Below the pieces are notes generated by a model. The model searched no databases, was not told the DNA's origin, and worked only from the letters and a program-made list of their open reading frames with translations. The translations under genes and the position numbers were made by a program. 64,000 nucleotides of DNA from Siphlonurus alternatus (lineage: Eukaryota > Arthropoda > Insecta > Ephemeroptera > Siphlonuridae). Positions 50,301-64,000 of this stretch are shown one piece after another; the first letter of the stretch is position 1, and each line of letters begins with the position of its first letter. The stretch covers positions 39,023,950 through 39,087,949 of the forward strand of contig OX463781.1 of the NCBI GenBank assembly GCA_949825025.1, in the 5' to 3' direction.

Positions 50301-53300
50301 TACATATCTAACAAATATTCTAACAAATTAAATTATGAAAATAGTAAAGTTGAATTCATTCCCTTTCTTTAATAAAAAACTGGATATTACCTTTTATATG
50401 TACAGTAGTTTAAAATGTTCAAAAGTGTAATCAGAGTACCTCCTAGTGGTGAACACGGGCAACGCTAACCCAGCCTTTGAGCAGGAATACTGGCTCAAGG
50501 GAATGAGTGTATTGTCTCTGTGGGTCTGTAAGTTAATCCCAAAGTCTGGTCAGGTCAGCAGGGCAAGCCGTTAGCAACATGTCCTCAGTACCGGTACATG
50601 AAGTCTAGTAATTAAGCCTCAGTACATAAAATAATAGCAGAACAAAAAATTCCTTAAAGGTGAACTGAAGGGATTGCTTTTTTTTTTCCATTAGGGAACC
50701 TTATATTACCTATCCCATCCATCTGCACTAATTTTTTCATGGCAGATACTTATTGTGCTGCTGTAGGACAATTAGTGAAAAAGTGAAGTTGTGACGTATC
50801 AGCGACGGTTGAGCCGATCGCCACTCTCTCGGCAGTTTCCGCGATCGCTCGTGTGTTTCTTTGCCGCGGCGAGTTTTAAGTCAACCAACCGTCGCTGATA
50901 CGTCACAACTTAACTTTTTCACTAATTGTCCTACAGCAGCACAATAAGTATCTGCCATGAAAAAATTAGTGCAGATCAGGGCTCGGTTCCGAGAACGTTC
51001 ACGGATCCAGATCCGCGAAAGATCCGCGGAAAACAATCGAGGATCTGGATCCGGGATCCAGGTTCCGCGAAAAACGTTCAAGGATCTGGATCCCGGATCC
51101 AGGTTCCGAGAAAAACGTTCGAAGATCTGGATCCCGGATCCTGGTTCCGCGATATACTTCCCGCTCCATGGATCGCGGATCCAGGTTCCGCGAAAAACGT
51201 ACGAGGATCTGGATCCCGGATCCTGGTTCCGCGATAAACTTCCCGCTCCATGGATCGCGGATCCAGGTTCCGCGAAAAACGTTCGAGGATCTGGATCCCC
51301 GATCCCGGTTCCGCGAAAAACGTTTGCGCAACCGAGGACATTTTTCATGTTTATTATTATTCTCCAAACTTTCCTCTTTAGGATTGTTAAATTGATTGCT
51401 GATAAGGTGATGAGTAAGGAAATAATTATTAATATTACTATACTTAATATTCCATCATTAGTGTTTATGATTACTGTTTCTGTAAGTTATAAGTTTGTTA
51501 GATTATATATATAATACATAATAATCAAGGAGACCCGAGCAGCTCTCTTCTTTTCAATCTTTTTACTGCAGATATAACTGAGATTACAAAAGATATAAAC
51601 TGTGAAAATGAAAATGATCAAGTCGTACTAAATTTATATGCAGATGATCTTGCTATTATTTCAAAGAGCAAAGTCAAGCTACAAAAAGCGCTAAATAATC
51701 TATCCATCTGGGCCAAAACAAATGGTCTAGAAATTAACACAGAGAAAACCAAGGTTGTTAAGTTTAGAAGAGGCGGACCGTTATGCAAAAACGATGAAAT
51801 TTATTGTGACGGTCAAAAGATTGAATTTCTAAATTCATTTAAATATCTTGGCATAATACTTCAAATGACAGGGCTTTCTTTTTCTAAACATATAACAGAA
51901 AGATGTAAGAACGCTATCACTGTTATGTACACTATCTCAGGGCTGTCTGGTCTATCCGTCAAAACAGGGCTCAAACTGTTCAATTTAAAAGTCGCCCCTG
52001 TGGCTACTTATGGTATTGAAATTGTATGGCCTCATTTATCTGTATCCGATTTTGATAAATTAGAATCAGTAAAAGCCATGTTTGTTAAAAGATTACTGTG
52101 TCTGTCAAAATTTACCGAAACTAGACTGGCCTATAAACTGATAGATTCCAATTATTTTATTACAGAAATCAAAGAAATGTTTAAACTTCCAACGACAGAT
52201 CAATATTCCAATTTTATAGCTGTCAGGAATCAAAAAGCTCAGGATATTAATCCTGAGTTTTACAGCACTGATGCTATGACATGTAAATATTGGTGTCTGC
52301 CCCAATTGGATAGATCCAATGTTAGAAATGTTTTAACTCGCCAGGCTGTTCACGGCTTCCACTATCTAATTTGTAAATCTTCTGGTTATCATAAAGCTGA
52401 ACAATCTTGTGTATGTAAATTATGTAATGAATATTGTAGCCAATATCATTTAAATATCTGTAAATCTAGAATTAAGTCTATTAGCGATTATGCCAGGGGA
52501 GATTTCATATAGTCTATAGATTTTGAATAGCAATGAAGCAATAAGTTTTTTTATTCTATCTATTTTCTATGTCATATTTTGTCTTATATATATGTGATTA
52601 TATATATGATATATTATTATTATGATGTAACAGGCTGTTAGTATCATCTGTTATTTTATTTTATATTGTTTTATTATCATTTTCTATTGTTCTATTATTC
52701 TGTAACTATTATATATGTTTTGTATGTATGTTTTATGTGTTCTATTGTAATGTTTTTCTATAATGTATGTTTCTAGTGCTGTTAATATGTACACTTTCTG
52801 TGTTTAATAAAAGACTAATAATAATAATAGTTATATGCGTATATGGGCCGTATATGCTGATGCTAAATAAGAATGGTAGGAAAGAATAAATAAATAAATA
52901 ATTTTAAAAACAATATAAAGATTATAAAGAAGCAACATTCAGATAAAAACATAACTTTTTATATTTAATAATATAATTCATGAAATGGATCCCGGATCTA
53001 GGTTCCGCGAAAACCGTTCGCGGATCTGGATCCCGGATCCCGGTTCCGCGTAAAAGATCCGAGAGCTCGGATCCGGGATCCTGGTTCCGCGATAGACTCC
53101 CTGGCACATTGATCCGGGATCCAGGTTCCACGAAAAACGTTCGCGGATCTGCATCCCGGATCCCGGTTCCGCGTAAAAGATCTGAGAGCTCGGATCCGGG
53201 ATCCTGGTTCCGCGATAGACTCCCTGGCACATTGATCCGGGATCCAGGTTCCACGAAAAACGTTCGCGGATCTGGATCCCGGATCCCGGTTCCGCGTAAA

Positions 53301-53701: not shown

Positions 53702-54967
53702 GTAAGTAAACCTACCTGTGGTCTTAACTTGTACCATGTATGTCAATGGTATGTAAATCTGGCTAGCAAGAGGACAGACTTGCATTTTCATCCTCAGTCT
53801 AAAATTACTATTTATTACTAATTTATGTTGATAAAATTCACTTTCGTCAGATTCCATGTCAAAAGTTTGATCTTACAGTTTGAATTATACTTTTTTCTGG
53901 TTAATTTTTTTCTGCTTAGCTCATTTAGAATGTACATGAATGTAAACCAGCACCTACCAATAAGGCTTCAGGCCTTGATAGGACTGCATTGTTATTTTTA
54001 TCAATAAAAATATTAAAAAAAAAAATATTGCTATAATTTCATGATGAAGAAGTTTTGTTTCATGTGAATTTTTATTATGTACAGTAAAATATTATTCTTC
54101 TAATGACGGCACTTGATGTGGGATGGATATTTCTATTACCTACCATATCTATTCAGTTTTATGGCCGTAAGTTGCGTCCAACCTATCCTAGGATAATCCT
54201 CGGATTTTTTGTGGCTAAACTTATCCGAGATAGTTTGATAAGTTGCGTCCACAAAATTTGCTACTATCCGAGAAAAATCCTAGAATAATCCGAGGAATAT
54301 CTTAGAAAATCTATCCAAGAAGTTTGGCGGATAATGTTCGGATAATTTCGCTATTTTTGGTGTGAAAAGTGGAATTAAAATTGCCAATTAAAATAAATTT
54401 AATTAATAATTTTAATGAAAATATTCACAATATTTTTATAAATAAGCAAATTAAAAATTATTAATATTTAATTATAATTAAATAAAATTAAATCAAACTA
54501 TTCTTCATGTCCTGTGTTACATAAATATTTTTTCTTTCAATTAAAAATTAAAATATGTAATACCAAAACAAATTTTTGCACACATATATTATGGCCAAAA
54601 TTTATTAAGAAATTTAGTAAAATTATAATTAATTATCTGATTTAATTTTCCACCCTTAAAATCGAGTTAATTAAAAAAATAAAGAGTGAAAAAATACATT
54701 CTTCTATATAGGACAACCGTTTTAAATATTAATTATTTTTAAATTGTAATTTTCTTAAGAAAATGAGCTTACTTAAAAAAAGCACTAATTAATTTCACCG
54801 GTGATAATTATAATTTAATTAAATTTAATTAGGTTAACCCTTAAGTTTCAAAGGTAACAAAAATATCATGACTGTTCAAATGCCGCACATAACTAATTCG
54901 GACCTGTAAATTAAAACGAATAAGAAAAAAAGTAGATTATAAATATACAAATCAACAATTTTATTGT

Positions 54968-57106
54968 GATCATGTTGAAAAACTTACTTGATCGTCCCCT
55001 GTGCTTTCAGGGATGGCCATATAGGATTTTTTTTAATATTAATAATTGCCATGCAATTAAGGTTGAAACATTGATTCCAGCATGATATTTATCCATCACA
55101 ACGGTGATGATGTTAAAAATTTTTAGAAGTCTGCTTGCCTCCTATGAACGAAAGCGGCAAATGGACGCTACGACCCACTACGTACAGTATGGCACCAAAC
55201 CCCCCTAGGGTTGGTACCCACGACTTTCCCCAAAAATACAAGAGTCCTTATGGGACTCAGGATTTTGGAAGGAGGACCCATCCCAGCCCAAATTTAATTG
55301 GCTATCCGACCGTGGTTGATTTGAAGCCTCAACCCTATTTGGACTCATGATAATGGGGTACCCAATAAAAGCTTTGTTGCTAGCTTCAATTTCAGGGACC
55401 CCCAGCATAATGGGGTCAAATTTTGGGCTAGGAACGAGTTTAAGACCTTTTTAGAACCGTATTTGCAAGGCCTAACTTTGACTTATTTCGAATTTGAAAT
55501 TTTCAAAAAACTCGGAAATCAGCAATGATATAAAATACAGTCGCATGCCAAAATTCGACTTTTTCTCTCCTTGAATAACTTTTTTAGAAAACCAGAATTT
55601 AAAAAAATACCCTGTTGGGAATTTGCCTACACATTTAAGCTTTCAGAAATTGTCTTCAATTTTTTTTTACCTTGAAGGGTTTGGCCACGCGAGCTAAAAA
55701 CGTAAGGGTACCTTCTCTCATAAGGATAACATGGGGAACTACACTCTTGCGTAATAACCTTTTTAGGAAACAAATTTTGACCGATTTGCACTGAAGCTTA
55801 TTTTAACAAGTTAGCAGACACACAAAATGTAATAGTGCTACTTAAAACATGGTAAAAACTACCCTTAACGAGATATTGACTCGTACTACGTACTACGTCA
55901 AAATAATGTTTAATCCGGATTTTAAGCTTACCATTGAAACCAGCTTTTTTTTATTTACTCTTTTTTTTTTTTTTTTTTCACCCAGAAACGATTGTTAACT
56001 TTTTCAAATCAGATGAAGCCAAGAATTTGAGGAAGGGAGCAAAAATAACATCCCCTAAAATCAAAGTCTTGGCTTCATATATCTGATTTAAAAAAAATTA
56101 AAATCATATCTGGGTAAAAAAAAAAAAAGATTGTTTCAATGGTAATTTTAAAATTCGGATTAAACAATATATTTTTACGTAGTATGAGTCAACATCTCGT
56201 TAAGGGTAGTTTTTACCATGTTTTAAGTAGCATTATTACATTTTGTGTGTCTGTGAACTTGTTAAAATAAGCTTCAGTGCAAATCGGTCAAAATTTGTTT
56301 CCAAAAAAGGTTATTACGCAAGAGTTCCTCATGTTATCCTTATGGGAGAAGGTACCCTTACGTTTTCGACTCGCGTGGCCAAACCCTTCAAGGTAAAAAA
56401 AAATTGAAGACAGTTTCTGAAAGCTGAAATGTGTAGGCAAATTCCAAACAGGGTATTTTTTTAAATTCTGGTTTTTGAAAAAAGTTATTCAAGGAGAAAA
56501 AAATTAGAATTTTAGCATGCGACTATATTTTATATCATTGCCGATTTCTGGGTTTTTCGAAAAACTCAAATTCAAAATAATTCAAAGTTAGGCCTTGCAA
56601 ATACGGTTCTAAAAAGGTCTTACACTCGTTCCTAGCCCAAAATTTGACCCCAATATGCTGGGGGTCCCTGAAATTGAAACTAGCAACAAAGCTTTTATTG
56701 GGTACCCCATTATAATGGGTCAAAATAGAGTTAAGGCTTCAAATCAACCACGGTCGGATAGCCAATTAAATTTGGGCTGGGATGGGTCCTCCTTCCAAAA
56801 TCCTGGGTCCCATAAGGACTCTTGTATTTTTGGGGAAAGTCGTGGGTACCAACCCTAGGGGGGTTTGGTGCCATACTGTACGTAGTGGGTCGTAGCGTCC
56901 ATTTGCCGTTTTTGTTCATAGGAGGCATGCAGGGTTCTAAAAATTTTTAACATCATCACCGTTGTGATGGATAAATATCATGCTGGAATCAATGTTTCAA
57001 CCTTAATTGCATGGCAATTATTAATATTAAAAAAAAATCCTATAGAGAAGAGGGAGAACCAACCCTGAAAGCACATGGGACGGTCAAATAAGTTTTTCAA
57101 CATGAT
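54968..57106. repeat. Large palindrome, about 2.1 kb
   Basis: GATCATGTTGAAAAACTTAC at the left and its near complement at the right. The arms of about 1 kb pair almost throughout, with a centre near 56037. The two arms give the same open-frame fragments in opposite orientation, so these are not genes. It lies between AGGF1 exon 8 and the LINE. Confidence 0.87.
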
Positions 57107-57627
57107 CAGTATAAATATACCACACTTGTTATAATTATTATTTTCTTATAATTTCCATTAATTATATAGTATTATAATTTTAAACATTAAAAATAAATTT
57201 CTGATAATACATCACGCAAAAAAGTGGAACACGAACACCCCTTAAAAAATTAAAATATAACATCAGGGAGAAAATTTTACATAATACAATAAAATTTTGT
57301 GTATCAATTTATTATTATTAGTCTTTTATTAAACACAGAAAGTGTACATATTAACAGCACTAGAAACATACATTATAAAAAAAAAACATTACAATAGAAC
57401 ACATAAAACATACATACAAAACATATATAATAGTTACAGAATAATAGAACAATAGAAAATGATAATAAAACAATATAAAATAAAATAACAGATGATACTA
57501 ACAGCCTGTTACATCATAATAATAATATATCATATATATAATCACATATATATAAGACAAAATATGACATAGAAAATAGATAGAATAAAAAAAACTTATT
57601 GCTTCATTGCTATTCAAAATCTATAGA

Positions 57628-60507
57628 CTATATGAAATCTCCCCTGGCATAATCGCTAATAGACTTAATTCTAGATTTACAGATATTTAAATGATATTGG
57701 CTACAATATTCATTACATAATTTACATACACAAGATTGTTCAGCTTTATGATAACCAGAAGATTTACAAATTAGATAGTGGAAGCCGTGAACAGCCTGGC
57801 GAGTTAAAACATTTCTAACATTGGATCTATCCAATTGGGGCAGACACCAATATTTACATGTCATAGCATCAGTGCTGTAAAACTCAGGATTAATATCCTG
57901 AGCTTTTTGATTCCTGACAGCTATAAAATTGGAATATTGATCTGTCGTTGGAAGTTTAAACATTTCTTTGATTTCTGTAATAAAATAATTGGAATCTATC
58001 AGTTTATAGGCCAGTCTAGTTTCGGTAAATTTTGACAGACACAGTAATCTTTTAACAAACATGGCTTTTACTGATTCTAATTTATCAAAATCGGATACAG
58101 ATAAATGAGGCCATACAATTTCAATACCATAAGTAGCCACAGGGGCGACTTTTAAATTGAACAGTTTGAGCCCTGTTTTGACGGATAGACCAGACAGCCC
58201 TGAGATAGTGTACATAACAGTGATAGCGTTCTTACATCTTTCTGTTATATGTTTAGAAAAAGAAAGCCCTGTCATTTGAAGTATTATGCCAAGATATTTA
58301 AATGAATTTAGAAATTCAATCTTTTGACCGTCACAATAAATTTCATCGTTTTTGCATAACGGTCCGCCTCTTCTAAACTTAACAACCTTGGTTTTCTCTG
58401 TGTTAATTTCTAGACCATTTGTTTTGGCCCAGATGGATAGATTATTTAGCGCTTTTTGTAGCTTGACTTTGCTCTTTGAAATAATAGCAAGATCATCTGC
58501 ATATAAATTTAGTACGACTTGATCATTTTCATTTTCACAGTTTATATCTTTTGTAATCTCAGTTATATCTGCAGTAAAAAGATTGAAAAGAAGAGAGCTG
58601 CTCGGGTCTCCTTGCAAAACTCCGTTAGATTGAATAATATTACTAGAACATGATAAGCGATCTTGAACACATACATAATTGATATTTAGAATAACAGCTA
58701 AGATATTCAAAATTTCAGAAGGAATTACTTTAAATGACTTCAGCTTTTCAATGAGCAAATTCCTATTGACCGAATCAAAAGCTTTTCTGAAGTCTACAAA
58801 AGCAATATATAAATGACCCTTTGGCTTCTCCAATGCTAGTTTAATTTGATTATATACTGTGGATACAGCTTGTATTGTGGAACGTCCTGGCATAAAGCCG
58901 TATTGCTCTTTTGGAATAAGATAGTGGGTGGAATCAAAAAGCCTGTTTGCAATTAATCTCGAGAAGAGTTTGTACATGGTATCACCATGGATAATACCTC
59001 TGTATGAGTCGGGTGACATAATGTTACCCTTCCCTTTGTATAATACCATTAGGTAGGCGATCCGCCACAATTCCGGAATTGTAGCCGTTTCAATACAGAG
59101 GTTAAACATATTGGTGATTGTTGGGGTTAACGACTTGCTTACTAGCTTCAAATGTTCATTCGTAATAAAATCTGGGCCCGAAGCTTTATTGTTTTTTAGG
59201 CTTTGCATACAATTATAGACTTCAAATTCATTAAGAGGAATATAATTTGAGTTACAATTATAGTCTCTTGTTAATGATAAAAGATTGAGAGTTTGGTCGG
59301 ATTGTAATTTATTTGTATTTAAGATATTTGTAAAATGGTTTTCCCATTTGTCTATGTTAATTGGGCATGACTTAGTTGGTGGTCTATCTTTCCTAAGATA
59401 TGTGTATGGTTCTAGCTCTGCGTCTTTAATCATTTTATCTTCCGATTTAATTTTAAATTCTAATTCTTTCTGCTTCAATAAAGCCTTATAACAGCTTCTT
59501 GCCTGAATAAATTGCTCATGCAAATTTGGGTTTTTGAATAAATATAATTTGCTGGCATGAAATTTTGATAGAAGATCTTGCCTTGATAGATAACATTCGC
59601 TATTAAACCAGGGTTTAGATACTCTTTTATTATTTTTCTTTGCAATAGTAGAATATAGAATGACATTAGTAATTAAAGTATTTAGACTATTTACATCTTT
59701 ATTATTGATATGAGTAATTATGGTATCACCATAAGTATAAATTTGGTCATTATAATTTCTAATATCAATTTTGTTTGAATAATTTGATCTGTAAAAAAGT
59801 TTTTTATTGGGAGGATTGCTAGGGGTAAATTTTAAAATAATTTCACCGGGTAGATGACTCTTTAACAGTGACGAGTTTGTCTCAGAAATAATGACATGTT
59901 TTATTAATATAAAATTTTTAGGTTTATAAAAAAGCAGGTCGATTGTACTTGAACCATTTGCGTTTACAAAAGTTTTTTCTAGGGGGCTATTAGAGAGTAA
60001 GTAGCCATTTGAATTTAAAATGTCTAATAGAATATCTGTCTTGTTTCGTAGATGTTTCGGGACATTTGAAAGGTCAATTCTACAGTTAAAATCGCCCGTG
60101 AAAATTACATTAGCATCATTTTCTGTGAGGCTTATTGCATATAGTACTACCTCCATTAGTTCGAGAACTGTAAAATATGGATTAAGGTACATGGCAATGA
60201 CTGTAAAAAATTTAGTTTTGATGATGATAAAATCTTTAAGTTTTAAGAAATTTAAAATTGGACCATGTTTTGGGTTTATGAAGCATGAGATGCCTCCAAA
60301 CGGTCTCCCTCTCTGCCATTTGAAAGCAAGGTTGTGGAAGGAGTAGTAGCCATTTATGTCAAGTGATTCAAGTAAGAAGGTCTCTGTGAATACAATAATA
60401 TCTCGGTTCTCAAGAATATTGTCTGAGATTAAAGGTATTAGCTTTTTCAGGCCTTCCACATTCCATAAGAGAATATTTAGCCTTAGTGGTGAGTTTGAGA
60501 CTACCAC
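57628..60507 (-). CDS. LINE ORF2: APE endonuclease plus reverse transcriptase (959 aa)
   Basis: Target-primed retrotransposition enzyme. The N-terminal APE-like endonuclease (about 8-225) shows LLWNVEG (Asn16), TET (Glu42), TGDFN (139-141), STIDLL (Asp190) and KSHLP (His218). The reverse transcriptase (about 440-745) shows NNKASGPD, FVDFRKAFD (Asp572), LQGDPSSSLLFN, YADD (669-672), the thumb region GLEINTEKTK and FKYLGI. A C-terminal Cys/His cluster (926-943, C-x-C-x2-C-x3-C-x3-H-x3-C) resembles the zinc knuckle common in LINE ORF2 proteins. No RNase H domain is seen. There are no stops or frameshifts. The upstream limit 60507 is a GTG. The open frame continues back to a TAA near 60600 without any ATG, and the first internal Met after it is inside the endonuclease domain (Met106), so how translation starts is unclear. 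Confidence 0.92.
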   Translation of the reverse strand: MVVSNSPLRLNILLWNVEGLKKLIPLISDNILENRDIIVFTETFLLESLDINGYYSFHNLAFKWQRGRPFGGISCFINPKHGPILNFLKLKDFIIIKTKFFTVIAMYLNPYFTVLELMEVVLYAISLTENDANVIFTGDFNCRIDLSNVPKHLRNKTDILLDILNSNGYLLSNSPLEKTFVNANGSSTIDLLFYKPKNFILIKHVIISETNSSLLKSHLPGEIILKFTPSNPPNKKLFYRSNYSNKIDIRNYNDQIYTYGDTIITHINNKDVNSLNTLITNVILYSTIAKKNNKRVSKPWFNSECYLSRQDLLSKFHASKLYLFKNPNLHEQFIQARSCYKALLKQKELEFKIKSEDKMIKDAELEPYTYLRKDRPPTKSCPINIDKWENHFTNILNTNKLQSDQTLNLLSLTRDYNCNSNYIPLNEFEVYNCMQSLKNNKASGPDFITNEHLKLVSKSLTPTITNMFNLCIETATIPELWRIAYLMVLYKGKGNIMSPDSYRGIIHGDTMYKLFSRLIANRLFDSTHYLIPKEQYGFMPGRSTIQAVSTVYNQIKLALEKPKGHLYIAFVDFRKAFDSVNRNLLIEKLKSFKVIPSEILNILAVILNINYVCVQDRLSCSSNIIQSNGVLQGDPSSSLLFNLFTADITEITKDINCENENDQVVLNLYADDLAIISKSKVKLQKALNNLSIWAKTNGLEINTEKTKVVKFRRGGPLCKNDEIYCDGQKIEFLNSFKYLGIILQMTGLSFSKHITERCKNAITVMYTISGLSGLSVKTGLKLFNLKVAPVATYGIEIVWPHLSVSDFDKLESVKAMFVKRLLCLSKFTETRLAYKLIDSNYFITEIKEMFKLPTTDQYSNFIAVRNQKAQDINPEFYSTDAMTCKYWCLPQLDRSNVRNVLTRQAVHGFHYLICKSSGYHKAEQSCVCKLCNEYCSQYHLNICKSRIKSISDYARGDFI

Positions 60508-61970
60508 CTCGTCAACTTTGGACGGGGTGGAGCAGAGAGGGTTGCGCGAAAATGCGGGCTCGGATTGGGCGAGCTGATTATATGTTGAGGCGGGTTGTTA
60601 ACTTTGGGGAGATGGGGGGTAGAGGGGTAGTGGAAATGCTGAAGAGAGCTGGAGGGGGACTTGGAACTTTCAGAGAGCATGTTGAGCCTGTAGTAGTAGG
60701 GAGCCTTGATGAGGCGGGGAGGGCCTGATGGCATTGGATGGGGACTATTTGTATTTGTGACACATGAGGGGCGAATGGGGGTGGTTGTCTGCGAAGTGCA
60801 GAGACGGGTGAGCACGGGAGGATGGGACTTAGGGGGAGATGAGGGTTGATGGACAATTTGGGGGGTGGGGTGGGCCATTGTGGGGGGGGATAAGGAGGGG
60901 GGTGGGGCAGAGGGATTGGGGAGAGTAGTGGGTGGAGTTTTGGGGGAAGGAGGAGGGGCAGAAGGTTTAGGGAATTGGGAATTTGGAGGGGAGATTTGAG
61001 GAGGGTGCATGAGACCATCGTTTGATGATAAGGAGGTGTGTTGATCAGATAGGAAAGTTTTGGGGTGGGTTTGGTTGTCACCTTGGGATGTTGTTGAAGA
61101 CGCCATATGGCGAGGACTTCTCCTCTGCTTCAGAGAGTAGACCTCAATAAGGATGTCCACGTTGATGAAGATAGCTTCGATTTTGCTCTTGACATAATTC
61201 CAATTGAGTCCATCTAGTCCTGAGCCGATACGAGGGATTGCGATTCTTTTAATTTGATTTTTGACGCAGTGATTTTTAAGGCCATTCAGGCCTTTAAGGA
61301 AATTCTTCAAAAATTGATTTTGGTTTTGGGAATACTTATGGTTGGACTTAAACTTGGTGATTATGTACAGAATGGTTTCACCATCTACTTGCAGTGTAGC
61401 GATATCACCAGGGAATCTTTGTTTGTTTCTGAGGTGTTCCAAGTTGCCGTATATATTTTTAAATTTCTTGGCTATGCCTGCATTCATCTTGATGTCAGCA
61501 GCGACTGCATGAGCTTTTACGACGGAACTGGGAACGTCGAAAATATTTCCTGTTTTTTCTATGATTTGGCAAGTGATGTCTGACTCGGGAATGTTGGGGG
61601 GAGGAATGATGCCAGCAAGGAATTCTAGGTATTCTTTGAGCTCTGGGTATCTCACGTGATCTGAGTTGGGCTGAAGATTCTGAGTCTGCATACGGTCTAA
61701 GGGACTTTTCGTACGCATACGAGATAGGATAGGTGTGGTTGATAATACTTGTTTTGTTGCTTGGGGAGGTGGGGGAGGGTTGGGGTGTGCTGGGTGGGGT
61801 GACTGATTCGGTGTCAGTGTGGCGAACTGACATCTAAGCAGATGAATTTGTTGCAGACAGGATGTTAGGGCAAAATAGAGGTAGTTCACGTCCAGAAGTG
61901 AACTTGGGTTTGGTTGAGCTGGTGGGTGAGAAATGTGGTAATAATATGGATTTAAGGTTGACAATGCCAT
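60501..61970 (-). CDS. LINE ORF1: TARG1/OARD1-like macrodomain protein with Pro-rich C-terminus
   Basis: 489 residues from the ATG at 61970 to TAG at 60503-60501. Residues 1-110 are low-complexity (Pro/Gln/Ser). About 133-282 is a macrodomain: the strand and loop GNIFDVPSS, then VAADIKMNAGIAKKFKNIYG, the GDIATLQVDGETILYIITK stretch, and IAIPRIGSGLDGLNW. It resembles human TARG1/OARD1, which removes ADP-ribose from glutamate and deacylates O-acyl-ADP-ribose through Lys84 and Asp125. The equivalent positions here are Lys206 (in IITK) and Asp253 (in GSGLD), so activity is plausible. Residues 285-489 are strongly Pro/Ser-rich and probably disordered and RNA-binding, as in many ORF1 proteins. I see no RRM or CCHC knuckle. 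The last codons overlap ORF2. The macrodomain call rests on motif order and spacing; its role in retrotransposition is unknown. Confidence 0.85.
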   Translation of the reverse strand: MALSTLNPYYYHISHPPAQPNPSSLLDVNYLYFALTSCLQQIHLLRCQFATLTPNQSPHPAHPNPPPPPQATKQVLSTTPILSRMRTKSPLDRMQTQNLQPNSDHVRYPELKEYLEFLAGIIPPPNIPESDITCQIIEKTGNIFDVPSSVVKAHAVAADIKMNAGIAKKFKNIYGNLEHLRNKQRFPGDIATLQVDGETILYIITKFKSNHKYSQNQNQFLKNFLKGLNGLKNHCVKNQIKRIAIPRIGSGLDGLNWNYVKSKIEAIFINVDILIEVYSLKQRRSPRHMASSTTSQGDNQTHPKTFLSDQHTSLSSNDGLMHPPQISPPNSQFPKPSAPPPSPKTPPTTLPNPSAPPPSLSPPTMAHPTPQIVHQPSSPPKSHPPVLTRLCTSQTTTPIRPSCVTNTNSPHPMPSGPPRLIKAPYYYRLNMLSESSKSPSSSLQHFHYPSTPHLPKVNNPPQHIISSPNPSPHFRATLSAPPRPKLTRW

Positions 61971-61994
61971 TTTTTTTTTTTTTTTTTTTTTTTT

Positions 61995-64000
61995 AATGAT
62001 CGATAATTTATGCTGGTATAATCAATTAAATTTTTAATTATATGAGAACAAGAAAAGTAGTGAGAGGGCTGACATAATCAGAATAGTTTTTACATTTACT
62101 GTAGCCACTTATACACAAATAATTGTTATGTAAGCTCAATCTTACTTGTTGCACGGCCGGATGAGATTTGTTGCTTTTTTGTAACTTAAAAGAGTAATTA
62201 GTAATATTTACTTAATAAGTTATCATCACTCCGATATGCTTCAAATTAATAATTCGTTTCTGTCTTGATTTTTTAGTATTATCTTGGTATTTACGAATAA
62301 ACGGAAGAGTGGCAAAATCGCGCCCGAAGATTAGAAGGCTGACGTCATGTATCAATTTATAACACCCCAATAATATACATCAATGGTTGGTTGGTTGGTA
62401 TTTTGGGGCAATTGACACATTTTGGTCATGGATGCCCCCCCCCCCCCCCCCCTATATATCAATGTTAGTCTCAATATACATAAAAAATATTTACAATTAC
62501 AATCCCCAACTTTTGCTAGCTTTTCGTTTCGCACCCGTTTTGAGGGTTGAAAGTATAACAACGAAAATTTCGGAGGTACTACTACATTTCCTGGCATGTT
62601 TTTTGTAAAGGTGGATTGACATGGCAAACTTTATCATGCGACGCAACGCGGATAATGCGCACTTGCTGTAACATCCATTGGCGGCCATATTTGGCAATTA
62701 AAAGAAAAAAAGCATCGTAATTCGCAATTAACGCGATTCTCGGCGAATTCGCCGCAGCATAGGATTTCACAGCTTTTAAGTCAAAATCACGTCGCATCGC
62801 CATTGTCACCATCTGAATCCGCCTTAAAGGGGGTGTGACTTTTCAAAATTAAAAATTCACCAAAAAATCTTCTTTCCAAAAATGTAAATTTCACTTTCCT
62901 CCGACTCCCCGTTCCTTCCATACCGCCCGGTCAAAAGTCTACTATGACGTCACATTACTTAAGGTCGCGCGCAAGAAAGCAAGCAAGCAAGTGGCGGCGA
63001 GCGCTAAAATCCACGTTTTCGCGTCTTTAAGCCCGCCTAGCAGCCGACAGCAAAGAGATAAAAATTATCCGCCACGGGATGATTTTATCTAAAGAACATT
63101 CTGCGTTTGTATCCGCTTTCGGCATTTCTTCATTTTAATTAGGAAATTAAATATCACGATGCAAACTCAAATTTTTTACAGATTTCTTTTGTCAACTGAC
63201 TTCAAACACATAAAATATTTTGTCAAGCATCTAATAACTTTATTGTAGACACACGTATTGGATTGACATATTATATATGTACAGTACATACGATTTATAT
63301 TATATAATGTATATGGTATTTCAACAGTATTTTAATTACCTATGATTTTAGCCGCAGCCTCACATTATATAATTATAAAATCACGGCAAACACGCAACTA
63401 AAACTGTTATCATTTTGTGCATTATCGCTATTTAATTACTTTCTTCGAAGTTTGAATTTAAGTTATATAAATATGCAGCATATATAGTGATTATTCGATA
63501 TTACCATTATTAATTATTAACACAATATGAATTATACTTTAAATTATTATATTTAGTCTAACATACATATAAGGCATTATATTATATATATCTTTTATTG
63601 CACTCATTATACGCTTGCTATTATGCATATACGGAAATTTATAAATAATTATGTGATTCAATTAACTAAAGGTGCAGTGATAACAATCTGAGAGATAACG
63701 TGGAGGAGGCGAAGTTATTGAATGCTGATGCAAAACAAATTTTTACAAAACTGAACTGAAGAAATCTCCCTACATTCTTGCTCCCTTATGTGTGCGGCCG
63801 GAACTGTCCGCTGACACTGAAAGCCAGAGTAAGCCCACGTGTCTATAAAGAAACAAAACTTTGCCATTATAAGTAATTATATATTTTTGCCTCAAAATCG
63901 AATTAAAAATTTGTTCATTATTTGTATTTATAATAATATGTAAAATCTATAATATCATTGAACCGATTGAACGTACAGTACTATACTATATATTATATAT
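61995..64000. other. AT-rich tract after the LINE
   Basis: Contains a C run at 62436-62452, the MITE copy at 62608-62826, a GCAAGCAAGCAAG repeat near 62971 and otherwise unique AT-rich DNA. I looked for the end of AGGF1 (a C-terminal exon following the G-patch) and found none. Confidence 0.55.
62608..62826. mobile_element. MITE with GGTGGAT...ATCCGCC ends, second copy
   Basis: AAAGGTGGATTGACATGGC at the left and CACCATCTGAATCCGCCTTA at the right, homologous to 22474-22675. Confidence 0.78.

Follow-up and report, generated by a model that had tools for sequence, protein, structure and literature searches.

A TARG1-like macrodomain in the first open reading frame of LINE families of Siphlonurus alternatus

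Infectious genomes such as those of alphaviruses (nsP3) and rubella virus carry a macrodomain of their own that acts against the poly(ADP-ribose) polymerases (PARPs) of the host. Here we describe a mobile genome that likewise bears its own macrodomain: a long interspersed nuclear element (LINE, a non-long-terminal-repeat retrotransposon) in a 64,000 bp stretch of the Siphlonurus alternatus genome (GCA_949825025.1, contig OX463781.1, positions 39,023,950 to 39,087,949), referred to below as the window. The first open reading frame (ORF1) of this element encodes a domain similar to human TARG1. Of all LINE components, ORF1 proteins are the least well understood, and the described types include one enzyme, an esterase (PMC4120745, PMC3905857). 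These types carry RRM/CCHC, transposase 22, PHD or esterase domains, and 448 elements of the Jockey superfamily have been divided among five ORF1 types (PMC4120745). The esterase-type (type IV) ORF1 of CR1/L2 elements such as ZfL2-1 resembles the ORF1 described here in that an enzyme domain stands beside poorly conserved stretches and no RRM is present; it differs in that the enzyme is a lipid-binding SGNH esterase accompanied by a coiled coil (PMC3905857), of which none could be demonstrated in the window ORF1. Insect TRAS LINEs have also taken up a foreign enzyme domain, but in that case it is a captured viral helicase and is located in the second open reading frame (ORF2) (PMC5563155). PHD/FP-type and CCHC-type ORF1s occupy the same place before the reverse transcriptase (RT) frame and are carried by other elements of this genome (L055, L057, L058 and L060), but without a macrodomain.

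TARG1 (also known as OARD1 or C6orf130; PDB 4j5q, 4j5r and 4j5s) is a stand-alone host protein of approximately 150 residues, in which Lys84 is the nucleophile and Asp125 resolves the lysyl-ADP-ribose intermediate (PMC6397177, PMC9967889). The window domain shares with it approximately 40% identity, a predicted fold and both of these residues, but it lies between long tails in a LINE ORF1, contains an insertion of 6 residues and carries Asn in place of the adenine contact Asp20. The macrodomain of the DarG antitoxin is a poorer match (46.7 bits for the window, compared to an NCBIfam DarG cut-off of 250), and the element has no toxin partner gene. ORF1s of this kind would be discarded by a published survey of proteins with the TARG1 pattern, because only those of 130-230 residues were kept (326 reduced to 262; PMC6397177). 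Among the papers listed in searches of the open-licence PubMed Central literature, none appeared, from its title and abstract opening, to describe a macrodomain in a LINE ORF1; PMC4120745 contains no word starting with "macro", and PMC3905857 contains one. This is consistent with the statement in the preliminary description of this DNA that no family of this type is well described.

Apart from its new and probably enzymatic ORF1, the element is an ordinary LINE. We propose tentatively, and with slightly less than even confidence, that it represents a new class of LINE ORF1, in which a TARG1-like ADP-ribose eraser was taken up more than once, replaced the usual ORF1 and serves, like the macrodomains of RNA viruses, as a counter-defence against the PARPs of the host. 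Because each residue of the catalytic pair can be mutated separately, a second enzymatic ORF1 type would make it directly testable whether ADP-ribosylation acts on transposons and whether transposons counterattack.

The macrodomain and the LINE that encodes it

ORF1 (60501..61970, minus strand) encodes 489 aa from an ATG. Residues 136-280 (61131..61565) constitute the macrodomain, while the N-terminal part (residues 1-135, 61566..61970) and the proline/serine-rich C-terminal tail (residues 281-489, 60504..61130) are without a family match. When PDB sequences were searched with phmmer, human TARG1 was matched with an E-value of 1.4e-27, with residues 136-280 covering essentially the whole of that protein. 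The predicted fold of the domain is that of TARG1, which ranked first in both Foldseek and VIA-align. Lys206 (codon 61353..61355) and Asp253 (codon 61212..61214) align with TARG1 Lys84 and Asp125. The preliminary description had proposed a TARG1-like macrodomain in ORF1 of an intact LINE, with these two residues at the catalytic positions, and had considered the possibility that no such fold would be present; the phmmer match, the alignment, the model and the 13 bp duplication that flanks the minus-strand element all agree with the proposal.

With Pfam at E-values up to 1, Macro was the sole match of the window ORF1 (E-value: 6e-4, 20.2 bits, cut-off 22), and no type I-IV domain (RRM/CCHC, transposase 22, PHD or esterase) was detected. 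At E-values up to 0.1, the ORF1s of nine other families (see below) matched Macro (except L022) and unrelated entries below cut-off, again with no type I-IV domain. We do not claim a coiled coil for the N-terminal part, as the best amphipathic score in the window ORF1 was equalled in 83 of 200 shuffled sequences. Such windows were seldom equalled only in L012, L016 and L066 (3, 1 and 5 of 200, respectively), while in the other seven families, including that of the window, 30-83 of 200 shuffles scored as high. In a set of 5.8 billion proteins, whole ORF1 retrieved two weakly matching macrodomain proteins and the domain region none. No relative of the macrodomain or of ORF2 was found in viral_contigs.

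Read from a GTG, ORF2 (57628..60507, minus strand) comprises 959 aa. Its frame stays open for 90 nt further upstream and shares 97 nt with ORF1. An RT domain is located at residues 499-742 (58282..59013; RVT_1, E-value: 9.1e-37) and an APE-type endonuclease domain at residues ~14-203 (59899..60468), the latter matching Exo_endo_phos_2 over residues 102-201 (E-value: 3.3e-8) and, below cut-off, Exo_endo_phos over residues 14-203 (E-value: 6e-4). LINE-1 ORF2p and R2 were among the PDB matches of ORF2. With an endonuclease and RT in ORF2, a target-site duplication, a simple 3' tail and a 5'-truncated copy nearby, the window element (57313..62347, ~5.0 kb) is a complete LINE.

When the genome (456 Mb, 102 contigs) was searched, the matches listed included 20 full-length copies of ORF1 (with that of the window) showing 98-100% identity and no stop codons, and at 17 of these 20 places ORF2 was directly behind ORF1. 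Similarly, 44 of the 48 ORF2 matches scored (from 4944 candidates) were without inner stops. Among eight ORF1 copies, 13 equal-length pairs differed at 0-2 synonymous and 0-4 nonsynonymous codons. The family is thus young. Two of the copies, L003 and L004, are also identical across all 1.5 kb of upstream sequence compared, and may represent a duplicated segment.

Macrodomain LINE families, selection and origin

Twenty of the more distant ORF1 matches were retrieved, and 18 of these are followed by an RT frame (17 identified by tblastn with the window ORF2 and L027 by its frame and Pfam, with RVT_1 matched in eight representatives). In 14 of the 18, both ORFs are open and overlap by 50-112 nt, while L010, L011, L013 and L028 have a broken ORF. 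The ORF2 of L028 is interrupted by ~2 kb of other sequence. A further element, L066, encodes an ORF1 of 789 aa and an ORF2 of 1013 aa. Using a cut of our own, by which ORF2 identity between families is at most 66%, the genome contains at least ten macrodomain LINE families (that of the window, L010, L012, L014, L016, L022, L025, L027, L028 and L066), with L013 and L023 as further copies of L012 and L022, respectively. The window ORF2 is ~25-29% identical to those of the other families. Pfam detected an endonuclease in five of the ten (the window family, L012, L014, L022 and, below cut-off, L027) and none in the ORF2s of L010, L016, L025, L028 and L066, although the N-terminal part of ORF2 in these five aligns with that of the endonuclease-bearing families (L066 through L016). 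Coding minisatellites, among them GEESGLASVNDGTTP and RPAEEVPALVSVNNE, occur in the C-terminal parts of the L016, L022 and L066 ORF1s.

When only the domain was used as query, 150 of 319 candidates were scored, all with E-values of 2e-21 or better. Judged by eye from identity and match range, 36 of these belong to the window family (28 spanning all 170 residues at 99-100% identity), ~30 fit the profile of L016 and ~60 that of L066. At least four of the 150 are not from LINEs: the two domains of L009, L021 and L067. L021 and L067 are short TARG1-like open frames, L009 and L021 have no RT match downstream, and all three loci look like host genes. In L009 (G000:C3:10608244-10617744), a single open frame holds a tandem pair of TARG1-like macrodomains: both catalytic residues are lost in the first (K to R and D to N) and kept in the second.

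Among the LINE families, the equivalents of TARG1 Lys84 and Asp125 are invariant in all ten. In total, 18 of 139 aligned columns are invariant, and these hold six of the 14 ligand-contact residues taken from PMC6397177 (F22, H32, K84, P118, D125 and Y150), an enrichment with a hypergeometric p of 0.003 if the general conservation of buried positions is disregarded. Nonsynonymous (dN) and synonymous (dS) substitution rates, estimated from Nei-Gojobori counts, were informative for two pairs of families. Between L025 and L028, dN/dS is 0.09 in the macrodomain (dS 0.45), compared to 0.68 and 0.42 in the N- and C-terminal parts of ORF1. Between L066 and L016, the macrodomain has a dN of 0.20 and a dS of 1.89; the corresponding values are 0.24 and 3.06 for ORF2, 0.44 and 1.04 for one flank of the domain and 0.33 and 0.54 for the other. 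In these pairs the macrodomain is under purifying selection that is tighter than in the rest of ORF1 and at least about as tight as in ORF2.

For phylogenetic analysis, RTs from 20 other places in the same genome were sampled, of which two (L045 and L046) proved to be from the window's own family; a second tree, again of RTs from this genome only, left out L045, L046, L036, L037, L043 and L054. The window RT groups with L042 and then L044, while the RTs of the remaining macrodomain families form a separate clade (support 100/100 in the first tree and 100/99 in the second). A single clade of all macrodomain RTs, including L042, was rejected (log-likelihood 43.9 lower, p-AU 0.001). L042 (RT 49% identical) was joined to the macrodomain group after the first tree had been inspected, on the basis of a related decayed element, L065, in two broken pieces (the second 57% identical); the stretch upstream of L042 itself (L064) has no readable ORF1. 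In the macrodomain tree, a single LINE clade was neither supported nor rejected (p-AU 0.31). Because only the RT tree rejects one clade, the pattern corresponds either to one capture followed by ORF1 exchange or to two captures. ORF1 exchange is favoured at least for L025 and L028, as their macrodomains are 92% identical and their ORF2s only ~50% (dS 0.45 compared to 1.5), and such exchange has been proposed earlier for CR1/L2 LINEs (PMC4120745). The presence of macrodomain ORF1s in two separate RT clades is a clear case of modular ORF1 evolution.

Of ten stretches examined upstream of the sampled RTs, five contain an ORF1 that can be read, in each case lacking a macrodomain. Three of these (L055, upstream of L041, and L057 and L058, upstream of L048 and L049) are of the FP type above the Pfam cut-off with PHD-like fingers below it, L060 (upstream of L040) has a zinc knuckle below cut-off, and L056 (upstream of L044) has no convincing Pfam match. 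In L059, L061, L062 and L063, no open frame reaches 200 aa.

Proposed function and alternatives

By comparison with TARG1 and DarG, the macrodomain is predicted to hydrolyse ADP-ribose links: the lysine would attack the distal ribose at C1'', giving a lysyl-ADP-ribose intermediate, and the aspartate would resolve this intermediate and free the target. The ORF1 protein (ORF1p) may carry this activity to the LINE particle and the integration site, where it would undo modification by host PARPs. It would presumably be directed at proteins, RNA or nascent DNA of the LINE itself, which should be within reach because ORF1p is expected to travel with the LINE RNA. In this way the elements would probably dampen a signal of host defence or repair. 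The preliminary description had likewise suggested an eraser that counters PARPs or helps at nicks. The host genome encodes PARP catalytic domains (26 candidates gave 22 matches, with each exon counted separately), and in humans ZAP/PARP13 restricts L1 (PMC4441479). Drawing on sequence, a predicted model and analogy, we give an even chance to the reading that the eraser removes ADP-ribose attached by host PARPs and so keeps the LINE RNA-protein particle and the integration intermediate clear of it.

Several observations weigh against this reading. The zinc-finger domain of ZAP suffices for restriction of L1, and overexpressed PARP1 did not inhibit human L1 (PMC4441479), which speaks against the PARP1 version in particular; host PARPs are therefore candidate opponents. 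Six PARP catalytic-domain matches lie within ~50 kb of one another (C8:24922550-24972709), but such a cluster is a correlation only. Pfam found no structured RNA-binding domain in ORF1 of the window or of the families scanned, and coating of the LINE RNA by ORF1 is for this reason an analogy. Macro scored above the Pfam cut-off in only four of the ten families (L014, L016, L025 and L028), below it in five (that of the window, L010, L012, L027 and L066) and not at all in L022, so that in families without a passing match the case for a macrodomain rests on the match to TARG1. Eight of the 14 contact residues vary among families, including the adenine contact Asp20, which is replaced by Asn in the window domain (Asn142), L010, L016, L022 and, by eye, L066, and by Cys in L027. 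L025 and L028 have Ser at the position of T83. Of nine families compared, five (L010, L014, L016, L025 and L028) have an altered GxG loop, as does, by eye, L066. Affinity or substrate may therefore differ from those of TARG1. The published TARG1 pattern, TKx(30,35)Px[IL]GxGxD (PMC6397177), is satisfied by three of the ten families (L012, L022 and L027, and the same-family copies L013 and L023); the window domain fails it because its 6-residue insertion gives a gap of 39 instead of 30-35, and L066 misses it by an A for G (by eye). Given the varying contacts, the altered loop and the missed pattern, we refer to the domain as TARG1-like rather than as TARG1. With respect to selection, the near-identical pairs L022/L023 and L014/L011 gave a dN/dS of 0.26 on a dS of 0.01, with too few changes to weigh, and in the six remaining pairs the macrodomain is saturated at synonymous sites.

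Other roles can be envisaged for the same pocket. An eraser might clear the ADP-ribose that PARP1/2 make at the nick cut by the LINE endonuclease and so let target-primed reverse transcription finish. The catalytic residues fit this equally, and the element has both an APE-type endonuclease and a target-site duplication; however, nicking by other LINEs does not require a macrodomain, and four LINEs sampled from this genome carry PHD-like/FP-type (L055, L057 and L058) or zinc-knuckle-like (L060) ORF1s. We consider such a role unlikely, if worth keeping in view. The domain could also be a reader: by binding ADP-ribose, it would tether the particle to stress granules or to PARylated chromatin. 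The macrodomain of ALC1, for example, is not enzymatically active but binds PAR (PMC9967889). Invariance of the pocket residues F22, H32, P118 and Y150 would suit a reader, but the catalytic lysine would be dispensable for binding alone and is nevertheless invariant in ten of ten families whose ORF2 identity falls to ~25%, while the non-LINE locus L009 has lost both catalytic residues in one of its domains. A pure reader is thus quite improbable.

If the eraser instead acted on nucleic acid in the manner of DarG, it would strip ADP-ribose from LINE RNA or nascent cDNA; the domain is closer to TARG1 than to DarG in both sequence and structure, which leaves this version with little probability. 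Even less can be granted to a structural or RNA-binding module whose pocket serves nucleic acid rather than ADP-ribose: RNA is bound by the ORF1p of other LINEs, the ORF1s here showed no further RNA-binding domain and there is a structure of a Chikungunya macrodomain with RNA (3gpq), but the catalytic pair and four pocket residues are invariant. The preliminary description had also raised the possibility of a single chance fusion. For this, or for a host gene copied beside a LINE, we found no support; 20 intact ORF1 matches, with ORF2 behind them at 17 of 20 places, and nine further families that keep the macrodomain refute it, and its probability is close to nil.

Element ends, ORF2 expression and neighbouring sequences

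The LINE is bounded by an exact 13 bp repeat, TGTATCAATTTAT, at 57300..57312 (3' side) and 62348..62360 (5' side). The last four bases of the 3'-side copy are shared with the 3' tail of the element (57309..57320), which reads TAATAATAATAA on the minus strand, that is, four TAA repeats. The 5' untranslated region (61971..62347, 377 nt) has a run of A immediately 5' of the ATG and starts with TGACGTCA (~62340-62347, minus strand), which we take to be a CRE-like palindrome and which could be part of an internal promoter. This 5' end is common to several copies elsewhere, which reach ~372 nt before the ORF1 ATG. The second copy of the LINE in the window (51526..52827, plus strand) is 99.6% identical, is 5'-truncated inside the RT domain and ends in the same TAA repeats as the complete element; no clear target-site duplication was seen around it.

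In the window element, L012, L016 and L022, ORF2 starts beside the ORF1 stop codon, in differing frames, and no AUG is found ahead of the endonuclease domain. This suggests start-codon-independent reinitiation for ORF2. A fixed frameshift was rejected as a general mechanism because the frame of ORF2 relative to ORF1 differs between families.

Two other repeats lie close to these elements. A short-unit repeat at 50881-51514, just before the truncated copy, is open on both strands (reading like DPGSRFREK and its reverse). A large inverted repeat (54960-57115), which ends ~200 nt from the 3' end of the complete LINE, has 714 nt arms (55027-55740 and 56323-57036) that are 95% complementary, as well as further nested arms, and is probably a foldback transposon.
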